Shown: in pieces, positions 37,486 to 51,711 of the stretch
How the letters are laid out: every line of letters starts with the position of its first letter
Numbering within the stretch: position 1 is the stretch's first letter
Assembly (NCBI GenBank): GCA_019429275.1
Contig: JAHYJC010000013.1
Coordinates: 1-64,000, forward strand
DNA: 64,000 bases
Direction: 5' to 3'
From: Lentimicrobium sp.
Lineage (GTDB): Bacteria > Bacteroidota > Bacteroidia > Bacteroidales > Lentimicrobiaceae
Notes under the pieces: generated by a model
What the model saw: the letters and a program-made list of their open reading frames with translations, nothing else
Database searches by the model: none
What the model was told of the DNA's origin: nothing
Program-made: the position numbers and the translations under genes

Positions 37486-37556
37486 TGTCCGATGGTGTAA
37501 CGGTAGCACAAGAGATTTTGGTTCTCTCGGTCTAGGTTCGAATCCTGGTCGGACAA
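37486..37556 (+). tRNA. tRNA-Gln (anticodon TTG)
   Basis: A 71-nt cloverleaf. The acceptor stem TGTCCGA pairs with TCGGACA (37549-37555), then discriminator A; no CCA is encoded. The anticodon stem AGAGA/TCTCT encloses TTTTGGT, giving anticodon TTG. The T-loop TTCGAAT is present. The first pair is U1-A72, the bacterial form of tRNA-Gln that GatCAB uses for recognition; archaeal tRNA-Gln usually has A1-U72. This is of interest because a GatDE pair is encoded 11 kb away. Confidence 0.93.
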
Positions 37557-37617
37557 CATTAAAAAACAATCACCCCGTTGCGCATGTTGCGCGCGTACTC
37601 AATGGTGAAACTAAGTT

Positions 37618-47946: not shown

Positions 47947-48273
47947 GACTTTTGTATTATCAGTGGTTTTTTATTTCGGTTTGCAAAAGTCGGAATATTT
48001 TTTGGAATTCACAACAATAAACCAAAAAAATAATTTTAAGAAAATTTTACCGTACAATCCTTGCCAAACGTTATTTGTAAAAAAATATTTTATGACTTTT
48101 AATAACATCTGGATCAGACCGGAGGTGAAATAAAAGGACAACAATCAGGAATTTCTCATTTTTTTTTGAGTTTTTCAATTTTGTAGTCAATGAAAAGTCT
48201 CCGTGTCAGAAAATAGTCAGTTAACAAATCTGGATCAGATTTTTAAACGGTGAATAATCTCTGATAAAAAGGA
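47947..48273. other. AT-rich divergent region between rpmB and gatE
   Basis: About 330 bp without a supported ORF. It must hold the rpmB promoter on the minus strand, where no perfect consensus pair was found, and the gatE promoter at its right end. No structured RNA was recognised. Confidence 0.45.
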
Positions 48274-48304
48274 TTGTACTTTTCCAAAAAATCCTGTAGG
48301 TTTG
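48274..48304 (+). promoter_or_regulatory. Promoter of the gatE-gatD operon
   Basis: TTG at 48274-48276 and TAGGTTTG at 48297-48304 are spaced 20 bp, an excellent Bacteroidota-type match. A start of transcription near 48310 would leave a very short leader before the first ATG at 48317 and about 20 nt before the ATG at 48329. Confidence 0.65.
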
Positions 48305-48328
48305 GCGCTTCATAAAATGCATCCCAAT

Positions 48329-50290
48329 ATGAACAAGAATTTCGATCCCAGGGAAAATTACAAAAAAACGCAAGAAGCTGCAGGATATATTCCACGCTCA
48401 AAGGCTACCCAGAAAACTTATGATGAAATAGGATTTATGTCGGGGCTTGAAGTTCATCAGCAACTCAAAACCAAAGAAAAGCTTTTTTGCCATTGTCCGG
48501 CAGGCATCTATCAGAAACCCAATGTTTTTGATGCTGAAGTTATCAGGCACATGCGTCCAACGCTGAGCGAACTGGGTGAATACGACGGAACCGCACTCAT
48601 GGAGTTTAAAACCCGGAAAAATATAATCTACCGTCTGAAAAATGAGACCACCTGTACCTACGAAGTTGACGACACGCCTCCTTTTCCGCTTAACCGCGAA
48701 GCACTGAATATTTCCATTGAGATTTCATTGCTTTCAAAGCTCAACATTGTAGGTGAGGTACACATCACCAGGAAACAATACCTAGATGGCAGTATACCGA
48801 CAGGTTTCCAGCGCACAGCAATCATTGGCGTTGAAGGTGAAATTCCGCTTAAGAACAAGAAAGTAAGGCTTATCCAGCTCAGCCTTGAAGAAGACTCATG
48901 CCGCGAAGTTTCTGATATCGGCCACACCCGAATTTACCGCACCGACCGGCTGGGTATGCCACTGATTGAAACAGTCACCTATCCTGACATGGCAAATCCT
49001 GACGAAGTGAAAGAAGCCTGCGATTATATCCGCTTTTTGAACCGAAGTACAGGAAAGGTCAGAACCGGTATCGGAGCTGGCCGTCAGGATGTGAATGTAA
49101 GTTGCCGGGGCGGATCAAGGGTTGAAATCAAAGGAGTAGCGCATACACGCTGGATTCCCGAACTTACCCATAATGAGAGTTTCAGACAGTGGTCGCTGCT
49201 GATGCTCCGCAACCGGCTGGTTAAAGAAATTCCGGATCACATAAACTGGAAAATCAGTCAGCTTGCTTTGGATTATTACGATTTTAATTTTAGTTACAAG
49301 CCTCTTAAGGAGAGCAAGGAGCTTAAACACAGGATCATTGCTGTAAACCTGCCCGGATTCAGGGGAGCGCTATCGCATTTTACCCAACCCGGCAAAATGT
49401 TTGCAAACGAACTAACCGAAAGGCTGAAAGTTATTGCTTGTCTTGAAATTCCTAACATGGCTCATACCGAAGAGTTTGATCCGGTTGTTCCGTTAGAGGA
49501 TTGGGAGTCCATCAGAAAACTTCTGGGATCTGCCCAAAATGATGCACAGGTATTGATCTGGGGTCCTGAAGCTGACATGAAAACTGCTTTGGAAACCATT
49601 GAAGAACGATGCAAAATGGCTTTTGCCGGAGTTCCTAATGAGACCAGAAAGTCATTTGAGAACGGCACCACAATCTTTGAACGTGTGTTACCCGGTGCCG
49701 ATCGCATGTATCCCGATACTGACAGTGCTCCCATCCCGCTTGAGGACAAATTAATTACAGAACTTGGCAGCAGCCTGCCGCAGGAGATTATCGACAGGTA
49801 TCACATCATGAAAAGCTGGGGAATTCCAGAAGACACCTACACCTACATTTTTAAAAAGGATCTTTTCCCACTGATTGAAAAAATCGTGAATGAGCTTGGT
49901 TACAGTCCTTCTTTTGTTGGCAGACTTTTTGGCCACAAATTGAAATACATTGAGGGCCATTCAAAACCAGCTGCAGAATTTTCGTACAAAATCGTATACG
50001 GACTTCTTAAGTTTATCAGCGAGCAGGGACTTACCCCCGAAATTGCCTGGCTGATGCTTCCACATGTTTATGAACATCCGAAAATTGATTTTGAATCGGT
50101 ATTGATCAGTATAAAATTTAAGAGAGTGGCCAAAGAGCAGTTGTTTGGCAGTGTCCCCTTCCTGAAATCAAAGTTTGCCGAAATTCAGATGAGCGAGAAA
50201 AAAAACAACGAAAAAGACTGGATAATGGGCCAGCTCAGAAAAATGGCCATCGGAAACGTAAGCCTGAGTGAGCTTGCTGCTAGTCTTTGA
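48329..50290 (+). CDS. gatE: Glu-tRNA(Gln) amidotransferase subunit E (archaeal-type GatE)
   Basis: A 653-residue subunit of the tRNA-dependent amidotransferase that phosphorylates Glu-tRNA(Gln) and amidates it with ammonia from GatD. The GatB/E cradle starts with IGFMSGLEVHQQLKTKEKLFCHC (about residues 34-56), then SCREVSDIGHTRIYRTDRLG and MPLIETVTYPDM. The part that separates GatE from bacterial GatB is the inserted AspRS-like GAD domain (about 285-430): GALSHFTQPGKMFANEL, AFAGVPNETRKSFENGTT and PGADRMYPDTDSAPI. A helical and YqeY-like tail follows. ATGs at 48317 and 48329 are both possible. It forms an operon with gatD. No GatA or GatC is nearby. Confidence 0.88.
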   Translation: MNKNFDPRENYKKTQEAAGYIPRSKATQKTYDEIGFMSGLEVHQQLKTKEKLFCHCPAGIYQKPNVFDAEVIRHMRPTLSELGEYDGTALMEFKTRKNIIYRLKNETTCTYEVDDTPPFPLNREALNISIEISLLSKLNIVGEVHITRKQYLDGSIPTGFQRTAIIGVEGEIPLKNKKVRLIQLSLEEDSCREVSDIGHTRIYRTDRLGMPLIETVTYPDMANPDEVKEACDYIRFLNRSTGKVRTGIGAGRQDVNVSCRGGSRVEIKGVAHTRWIPELTHNESFRQWSLLMLRNRLVKEIPDHINWKISQLALDYYDFNFSYKPLKESKELKHRIIAVNLPGFRGALSHFTQPGKMFANELTERLKVIACLEIPNMAHTEEFDPVVPLEDWESIRKLLGSAQNDAQVLIWGPEADMKTALETIEERCKMAFAGVPNETRKSFENGTTIFERVLPGADRMYPDTDSAPIPLEDKLITELGSSLPQEIIDRYHIMKSWGIPEDTYTYIFKKDLFPLIEKIVNELGYSPSFVGRLFGHKLKYIEGHSKPAAEFSYKIVYGLLKFISEQGLTPEIAWLMLPHVYEHPKIDFESVLISIKFKRVAKEQLFGSVPFLKSKFAEIQMSEKKNNEKDWIMGQLRKMAIGNVSLSELAASL

Positions 50291-50325
50291 TAAAAAACAA
50301 ATGCAACACAGAAATAAATAACAAA

Positions 50326-51711
50326 ATGGCTGAGGATATTTTTCAGGGATACAAAGGATTGGCATTGGAAGTGCTAAAAAAATTCAATGTCAGGGTTTGG
50401 GGACAGGCTGATGTTTTAACCACCCGGGGTCTGTTTAAGGGCACAATTCTACCGCGATCGGAAAACGATGACGACAAACACATTGTGATGAAGATCATAA
50501 CCGGCTATAATATAGGTCTCGACATTGCAACCATTAGCGATATGAAGGAGACGGGCTATAAAAAAGCCAATTACAAAATTCCTGAAAAAGAGTTTCCTTA
50601 TACGCAAGGACTGCCGAAAGTGAAACTTATCGGCACCGGAGGAACCATTGCATCGAGGCTCGACTACAGAACCGGAGCTGTAATTCCCGCATTCTCTCCG
50701 GGCGAATTGTATGGAGCAGTGCCCGAACTGGCAGAAATCTGCAACCTGACTACAGAAAAAGTTTTCGCTGTGTTCAGCGAAAATATGGCACCTGAAAATT
50801 ATAAAAAGCTTGCCATCGCCATTGGCAAGGAAATTGAAAACGGGGTAGATGGAATTGTAATCGGTCATGGTACTGATACATTGCATCACACAGCCGCAGC
50901 GCTGACGTATATGGTTCAGAATCCACCGGTACCAATCGTACTGGTAGGATCACAGAGATCGTCAGACAGGCCAAGTTCTGACGCTGCTTTGAATCTTATG
51001 CATGCCTGCACCACAGCCGGTCATGGCGACATTGCTGAAGTAATGGTGTGTATGTTTGGACCGACCAGCGACGAATATGGATTCCTGCACCGGGGAACAA
51101 GGGTTAGGAAAATGCACTCTTCATACCGTTCAACATTCCGCACCATTGGCGACACTCCGCTTGCAACAGTTACGCGCAGAGGAGTTGAACCCATCAAAAA
51201 GGAGTACAACCACCGTCGCAAAGACAGGAACGTAACCATACTGCCGTACTTCGAAGAAAAAGTAGCCATTGTTTATTATTATCCGAACATGCAGCCCGAT
51301 ATCATTGATTCGCTGGTTCAGAATGGATATAAAGGCATAATTATAGCCGGAACCGGACTCGGACATGTAAATAAACCCATTTATCCTGCCATTGAGCGTG
51401 CTCACGCGGCGGGAGTTCATATGTATATGACTGTTCAGACTTTGTGGGGTTATGCTCATATGTTTGTTTACGACACGGGCCGCGACCTGATGGCCAAAGG
51501 AATAGTTCCGGCTGCTAATATGCTGCCCGAAGCTGCCTATATTAAACTGGGCTGGGTTTTAGGACAAACCAATGATCCGGAAGAGGTAAAACGTATGATG
51601 CTGACTCCTGTGAATGATGAAACCACATCACGGGAGCCTTACAATGGATATCTCGTTTATCAGGGCGGCGTTCCTGAAATTGAAGATTTTATAAGAAAAG
51701 TCAGGAAATAA
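50326..51711 (+). CDS. gatD: Glu-tRNA(Gln) amidotransferase subunit D (archaeal-type GatD)
   Basis: A 461-residue asparaginase-like subunit that releases ammonia from glutamine for GatE. An N-terminal beta-domain (about 1-90) precedes the amidase. LIGTGGTIASRLDYRTGAV gives nucleophile Thr107. HGTDTLHHTAAAL supplies Thr183-Asp184, GSQRSSDRPSSDA the next loop, and RGTRVRKMHSSYRSTF the catalytic Lys262. The GatD-type N-terminal domain, the RKMHSSYR block and adjacency to gatE separate it from ordinary L-asparaginases. This GatD is unrelated to the MurT-GatD of Gram-positive bacteria. The ATG at 50326 lies 35 bp after gatE; the TTG at 50287 is rejected. Confidence 0.88.
   Translation: MAEDIFQGYKGLALEVLKKFNVRVWGQADVLTTRGLFKGTILPRSENDDDKHIVMKIITGYNIGLDIATISDMKETGYKKANYKIPEKEFPYTQGLPKVKLIGTGGTIASRLDYRTGAVIPAFSPGELYGAVPELAEICNLTTEKVFAVFSENMAPENYKKLAIAIGKEIENGVDGIVIGHGTDTLHHTAAALTYMVQNPPVPIVLVGSQRSSDRPSSDAALNLMHACTTAGHGDIAEVMVCMFGPTSDEYGFLHRGTRVRKMHSSYRSTFRTIGDTPLATVTRRGVEPIKKEYNHRRKDRNVTILPYFEEKVAIVYYYPNMQPDIIDSLVQNGYKGIIIAGTGLGHVNKPIYPAIERAHAAGVHMYMTVQTLWGYAHMFVYDTGRDLMAKGIVPAANMLPEAAYIKLGWVLGQTNDPEEVKRMMLTPVNDETTSREPYNGYLVYQGGVPEIEDFIRKVRK

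Follow-up and report, generated by a model that had tools for sequence, protein, structure and literature searches.

The genome of Lentimicrobium sp. (assembly GCA_019429275.1), a member of the Bacteroidales, harbours the genes for both subunits of the tRNA-dependent amidotransferase GatDE, and it harbours them beside a complete glutaminyl-tRNA synthetase (GlnRS). The genes, gatE and gatD, are located in the window analysed here, a stretch of 64,000 nt which corresponds to bases 1-64000 of the 96 kb contig JAHYJC010000013.1. The host genome of 4.19 Mb is assembled in 108 contigs, and is 96.5% complete and 0.9% contaminated. We found that in the host and in its order GatDE as a rule supplements GlnRS and does not replace it. 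Probably the pair is a working Glu-tRNA(Gln) amidotransferase, which the cell retains in addition to GlnRS as an alternative or repair pathway.

The assignment of the two genes relies on family models, active-site residues and structure matches, and these bear out the sequence-only reading of this DNA, an earlier annotation which had recognized a complete GatDE pair. GatD scores 491 bits against TIGR02153 (cut-off 324). GatE scores 402 bits against TIGR00134 (cut-off 319.6), 454.8 bits against NF003107, which is marginally below the cut-off of 456, and 158 bits in its GatB/GatE catalytic domain (PF02934). The best solved relatives of both subunits are archaeal GatDE structures. GatD consists of GatD_N and asparaginase domains with the catalytic T, T, D and K; these residues (T107, T183, D184 and K262), which had been read as intact, were found to be invariant in all 29 aligned bacterial GatDs, taken from bins labelled Bacteroidota, Cloacimonadota, Aminicenantes and Zixiibacteriota. 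In GatE, the E50/H52 and EED motifs, which we take to belong to its active sites, are invariant in the aligned bacterial relatives (L063 was left out of this alignment due to a stop within its given range).

A GAD domain inserted in GatE had also been claimed. The Pfam models GAD and GatB_Yqey gave no match to GatE at E 0.001. A profile of 31 bacterial GatE sequences aligns without interruption to residues 7-612 of Pyrococcus abyssi GatE (1zq1), across the GAD insertion and the helical domain into the tRNA-binding tail, and it likewise spans the inserted domain of the Methanothermobacter thermautotrophicus protein (2d6f). The predicted GatE model has a mean pLDDT (predicted local distance difference test) of 77, with weak stretches that include residues 76-124 and 446-472, and its tail region is all-helical; the top PDB matches of this fold in Foldseek are the GatEs of 2d6f and 1zq1 (E 7e-35). 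Thus, the unbroken alignment and Foldseek confirm the insertion. With the two archaeal enzymes the pair shares the two subunits, the domain order, the GatD catalytic residues and the predicted GatE fold. It differs from them in that it coexists with GlnRS, a bacterial glutamyl-tRNA synthetase (GluRS) and a tRNA-Gln with U1-A72, and in that the bacterial and archaeal GatEs are only 33-37% identical (five pairs, two archaeal GatEs). From the bacterial amidotransferase GatCAB, whose GatB shares the cradle, helical and tail domains with GatE, the pair is distinguished by the GAD insertion and by an asparaginase-like GatD, whereas GatA is an amidase.

The scan of species genomes for GatE returned 100 relatives, of which 80 were kept, with GatE identities of 56-88%; distant members are under-sampled in it, because the search patterns were derived from the window protein. 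Among the bins with relatives are some that carry the labels Cloacimonadota, Aminicenantes and Zixiibacteriota, and one scan of viral contigs yielded no relative. In an order-wide sample of 295 genomes, drawn evenly from the order of the host, GatE was detected in 127 genomes (122 above the cut-off and five as fragments) and GatD above the cut-off in 130. Both subunits are present in 126 genomes, GatE only in one, GatD only in four, and neither in 164. The pairing is near-strict, with both subunits in 126 of the 131 genomes having either of them. The four genomes with GatD and no detected GatE (G057, G091, G232 and G281) may be due to assembly gaps or may contain a lone GatD. The genes also stay together, since 70 of the 80 fetched stretches contain gatD along with gatE; among the 71 stretches reaching at least 1.5 kb past gatE, it was found in 64 (in 51 of them within 100 bases) and in seven it was not. 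Besides gatD, no single gene was seen adjoining gatE across phyla. A cluster of ABC (ATP-binding cassette) ATPases from 13 stretches was considered as a shared neighbour and rejected, as the nine cases re-examined are different genes, 26-38% identical across phyla. In one of the 80 stretches (L081, uncultured bacterium), glnS is located directly upstream of gatE, in the order glnS-gatE-gatD.

The relation of GatDE to the other charging enzymes follows from the gene content. Two host proteins carry the class-Ic catalytic domain, namely a complete GlnRS (TIGR00440, 753 bits, cut-off 426) and a GluRS of the bacterial type (TIGR00464, 493 bits, cut-off 290). Asparaginyl-tRNA synthetase (AsnRS) is above the cut-off in the host (632 bits) and in 275 of the 295 order genomes. 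GatB above the cut-off was found neither in the host genome nor in any of 46 genomes examined (the host and the genomes of 45 of the 80 loci), and the sole amidase found in the host begins like a lipoprotein, which makes it unlikely to be GatA. Thus, a check of the host genome for glnS and gatA/B/C, as recommended by the sequence-only reading, revealed glnS and no GatCAB. The question raised there, whether GatDE replaces or supplements GlnRS or GatCAB, is answered by the host gene content in favour of a supplement to GlnRS, GatCAB being absent.

Among the order genomes which are at least 90% complete, GlnRS went undetected in 4 of the 105 with GatE (it is present, fragments counted, in the other 101) and in 4 of the 142 without GatE; the corresponding numbers for GluRS are 3 of 105 and 5 of 142. 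In all 295 genomes, GlnRS was not found in 11 of 127 with and 10 of 168 without GatE. A synthetase was scored as absent here if its model gave either no match or just matches as weak as those given by the other synthetase, with nothing better than approximately 1e-20 (GlnRS model) or 1e-25 (GluRS model), and fragments were scored as present. The absence of GlnRS is therefore near the level of assembly gaps and not linked to GatDE, and we conclude that GatDE supplements GlnRS as a rule. In line with this, replacement of AsnRS or GlnRS by GatDE was rejected as a rule on the basis of the synthetase counts, with seven of the 46 genomes, in which no GlnRS was seen, as the exception. At least 8 of the 127 order genomes with GatE also carry a separate GatB-like gene (G054, G058, G095, G130, G134, G172, G175 and G236), and in G054, G172 and G175, which are 78-88% complete, GlnRS was not found. 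In G059, G122 and G226 (families f14 and f77; 90, 91 and 73% complete), we observed a GatB-like gene and found neither GlnRS nor GatE; possibly these are Bacteroidales which rely on GatCAB for glutamine.

Because the active sites and the tail are intact, amidation of Glu on tRNA is the likeliest chemistry, and since a complete GlnRS is available in the same cell, this activity most likely serves as a second route. GatD would free ammonia from Gln or Asn, and GatE would phosphorylate the side chain of Glu on tRNA(Gln), converting Glu to Gln. GlnRS would charge tRNA(Gln) directly, and GatDE would offer a second, conditional or corrective route for Glu-tRNA(Gln) arising from GluRS errors or under Gln scarcity. 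We infer this chemistry and this substrate from the protein families: Glu-tRNA(Gln) is the obvious substrate, from which GatDE would make Gln-tRNA(Gln), and the condition under which the pair matters is our guess.

Several observations weigh against this reading. No GatE was detected in 168 of the 295 order genomes, and it is therefore dispensable. In the set of 46 genomes, GlnRS was above the cut-off in 38, present as fragments in one and not seen in seven, whereas a GluRS-level match was missing in one; the completeness of these genomes is unstated. GatDE is therefore possibly the sole route in a few genomes. A real loss of GlnRS is possible in a few of the 46, and in such genomes GatDE may be a replacement. 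Twelve of the 46 are labelled Cloacimonadota, Aminicenantes, Zixiibacteriota or Tenebribacter, and 11 of these 12 have GlnRS above the cut-off.

The remaining points concern the tRNAs and the synthetases; the form of the host tRNA-Gln(UUG) counts in favour of the second-route reading, and the comparison across genomes counts against it. The host has 41 tRNA matches, among which ARAGORN names two tRNA-Gln (UUG and CUG) and one tRNA-Glu (UUC). The tRNA-Gln(CUG) adjoins glnS, and the tRNA-Gln(UUG) lies in the window. The latter lacks base 47 and has U13.G22, which we take to be part of the longer D stem required by a GluRS; the tRNA-Gln(CUG) shows neither feature. According to PMC9976931 (this and the other papers are cited here for excerpts of their text), one GluRS requires a longer D stem and a missing base 47, and therefore changes in tRNA, GluRS and GlnRS were tested against the presence of GatDE. 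A GluRS-type tRNA-Gln(UUG) was rejected as a general explanation of GatDE, since the trend runs in the opposite direction: base 47 is absent in 17 genomes with and 43 without GatE and present in 20 and 8, respectively, in counts which cover 88 of the 295 genomes, classed by eye among the matches listed, and which ignore relatedness. Both loop classes occur with and without GatE; the 40 whole tRNAs compared (20 from genomes with and 20 from genomes without GatE) were picked by loop class, so that the class frequencies among them are uninformative. Further, U1-A72 was present in all 42 tRNA-Gln(UUG) examined (these 40 and two others) and in both host isoacceptors, while archaeal GatDE is described to interact with A1:U72 (PMC9499178). 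Therefore the bacterial GatDE would read tRNA differently, if tRNA-Gln is its substrate. We also observed that in Bacteroidales families the tRNA-Gln(UUG) alternates between a 4-base loop with U13.G22 and a 5-base loop with U13-A22, and that 3 of the 42 combine a 4-base loop with U13-A22. A partial tRNA-like match of 34.6 bits (G000, contig C71:4196-4251; L123) received no call from ARAGORN.

For GluRS, 90 sequences (one a short fragment) were fetched from approximately 150 listed rows and compared with that of the host. The Arg typical of the discriminating enzyme of Thermus thermophilus is kept in 45 of 46 GluRSs from genomes with GatE and in 44 of 45 from genomes without it. Thus, the search for a non-discriminating GluRS, which had been recommended too, gave no sign of relaxation and a relaxed GluRS in genomes with GatE is unsupported, although in one other phylum this residue had no such effect according to the excerpt of PMC3927822. 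The strongest single GluRS column is host residue 183, which is V in 40 of 46 sequences with and 19 of 45 without GatE, and this difference may reflect shared ancestry. An altered GlnRS is also unsupported: Y, C and Q, presumably the Gln-pocket residues, are invariant in 11 sequences from genomes with and 10 from genomes without GatE, and two signature motifs vary little. With no accompanying change found in tRNA, GluRS or GlnRS, the second-route reading rests on the enzyme and not on its context.

This situation leaves room for a repurposed GatDE, which would use the same chemistry on a glutamyl group carried by a different tRNA, by a modified tRNA or by a molecule other than tRNA. GlnRS, GluRS and AsnRS are all already present, no GluRS, GlnRS or tRNA-Gln change was found to track GatDE in the expected direction, and the split from archaeal GatE is deep. 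However, the fold, the active sites and the tRNA-binding tail are retained and no new conserved partner gene was seen, and we regard repurposing as rather unlikely. Alternatively, GatDE could act as a nitrogen shuttle that makes Gln on tRNA with Asn as donor in cells in which the synthesis of free glutamine or asparagine is limited. As a precedent, the GatCAB of Bdellovibrio and Deinococcus likewise persists beside AsnRS and GlnRS (PMC4206432, excerpt); in contrast to the host pair, which is of the Gln-specific type, this GatCAB presumably supplies Asn formed on tRNA and is assigned to Asn-tRNA(Asn). We consider such a shuttle improbable.

A relic that is being lost after the acquisition of GlnRS would explain the patchy presence of GatE within families, as f34, f71 and f101, for example, show both states. 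However, gatDE is under purifying selection, with a constraint similar in strength to that on glnS, though many lineages lack the pair. Between the host and two close relatives (L245 and L247), whose synonymous divergence from it is saturated or nearly so, the nonsynonymous divergence (dN) is 0.024 and 0.058 for gatD, 0.080 and 0.126 for gatE, 0.068 and 0.084 for glnS, and 0.248 and 0.213 for gltX. Since gatD changes no faster than glnS, and since GatD is retained in 126 of the 127 genomes with GatE, we see no relic in GatDE, and an ongoing loss is very improbable. As an aside, the nonsynonymous change of the host gltX (L002:1495-3021) in this comparison is approximately 2.5 to 3.7 times that of GlnRS. 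If GatDE amidated Asp-tRNA(Asn) and so stood in for AsnRS or GatCAB, this would fit the lack of GatB above the cut-off in all 46 genomes; against it, AsnRS is present in the host and in most of the order genomes and archaeal GatDE is specific for Glu, and thus this role is hardly to be expected.

Where the bacterial pair came from was addressed by comparison with the archaeal proteins. The two archaeal GatEs share 53% identity. Compared with GatEs from two other phyla, the window GatE reaches 56% and 60%. When six GatBs from Bacteroidales served as the outgroup, the tree united all 31 bacterial GatE rows in one clade (95/93) and the archaeal ones, three in number including a fragment, in another (100/99). 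From this tree, the second of two, GatB_L219 and one Natrinema piece had been removed after a long-branch warning; in the first tree, with the Natrinema piece, the bacterial clade was supported (100/99) and the archaeal group was not (54/0). On this thin sampling, the bacterial GatEs appear as a sister clade to the three archaeal ones. A side observation in this set is an unannotated haloarchaeal gatE, split across two frames, on a plasmid of Natrinema thermotolerans (L126).

The sequence-only reading had considered horizontal transfer or an overlooked bacterial branch. The distribution and the single clade speak for the bacterial branch. A recent transfer into the host genome is unsupported, because the pair is order-wide, the bacterial GatEs form one clade and their identity to the archaeal proteins is low; these data argue against a recent transfer from the archaea sampled. 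Because just three archaeal rows were usable, a shared ancestor and a very old transfer cannot be separated in these trees, and an old transfer between the domains may have taken place. A bolder reading, which we hold to be less likely than not, takes the bacterial enzyme for an ancient sister line of archaeal GatDE that survived beside GlnRS by assuming another task, either amidation of a glutamyl group on a tRNA or carrier other than Glu-tRNA(Gln) or quality control of Glu-tRNA(Gln). Although the literature calls the GatDE family archaeal, the probability of archaeal contamination or of a recent transfer from archaea is practically nil in view of the flanking genes, the codon usage, the bacterial relatives and the tree, and for this contig contamination is refuted.

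The local setting of the genes agrees with this (Table 1). The genes flanking gatE and gatD read as Bacteroidota type, the codon usage of the pair correlates with that of four neighbouring genes (0.94), and the same pair is present in other bins labelled Lentimicrobium, so that the earlier argument from codon use and flanking genes stands. The GC content is 0.445 and 0.459 for the pair versus 0.415 for the window. Both genes are intact and 35 bases apart. The likely ATG start of gatE matches the start of the aligned relatives, while the open frame extends from a TTG at position 48302; that of gatD extends from a TTG at 50287. A Bacteroidota-type promoter had been proposed and is indeed conserved in the aligned upstream regions of gatE: as judged by eye, 12 of the 13 regions retain TAnnTTTG, which we take to be the Bacteroidota -7 motif and which reads TAGGTTTG in the host, and 11 of the 13 have TTTG at the -33 place, where the host has ATTG. 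No regulatory RNA was found, as at Rfam gathering scores the window holds just a tRNA and an intron end. This group II intron end (RF02001, 35.7 bits, minus strand, positions 1-41) encloses the start of the contig. A defence-system role of the locus was rejected, as PADLOC gave no match.

Table 1. Features of the gatE-gatD locus and the tRNA-Gln(UUG) gene (window coordinates).
Feature	Position	Strand	Description
ATTG at the -33 place	48273..48276	+	20 bases ahead of the -7 element
TAGGTTTG	48297..48304	+	Bacteroidota-type -7 element, kept upstream of gatE in close relatives
gatE	48329..50290	+	653 aa; amidotransferase/kinase subunit composed of a cradle domain, the GAD insertion, a helical domain and a YqeY-like tail
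gatD	50326..51711	+	461 aa; asparaginase-like subunit that donates the amide and carries a GatD_N domain
tRNA-Gln(UUG)	37486..37557	+	U1-A72, U13.G22, 4-base variable loop without base 47; candidate substrate

In the excerpts cited, GatDE is described as now found solely in archaea (PMC9499178) and as confined to archaea which miss AsnRS (PMC8007984). Its restriction to archaea, together with the absence of GlnRS from them, underlies arguments on the last universal common ancestor (LUCA) and on the non-entry of GlnRS into archaea (PMC9499178). Among the titles and abstract openings of open-licence papers that our searches turned up, we found none on bacterial GatDE; an earlier notice elsewhere is possible, and family-model annotation probably already labels many bacterial gatD and gatE genes in databases. 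The excerpt of PMC3927822 predicts, for organisms that have GlnRS but no gatCAB, a GluRS that discriminates against tRNA-Gln; by our reading of its table, 12 of 14 Bacteroidetes fall into this group, and the excerpt scores gatCAB and not GatDE. According to the excerpt of the 2014 paper PMC4206432, no bacterium was known with both routes to Gln-tRNA(Gln).

The wide occurrence of GatDE in bacteria that also have GlnRS matters for the LUCA argument, for the dual-route claim and for the GluRS prediction. If GatDE has either a special job or a policing role, genomes of the host type would represent bacteria with both machineries for Gln-tRNA(Gln), a combination not known according to the excerpt of PMC4206432. 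Thus, cells with GatDE and GlnRS may have two routes for one step in the reading of the genetic code.

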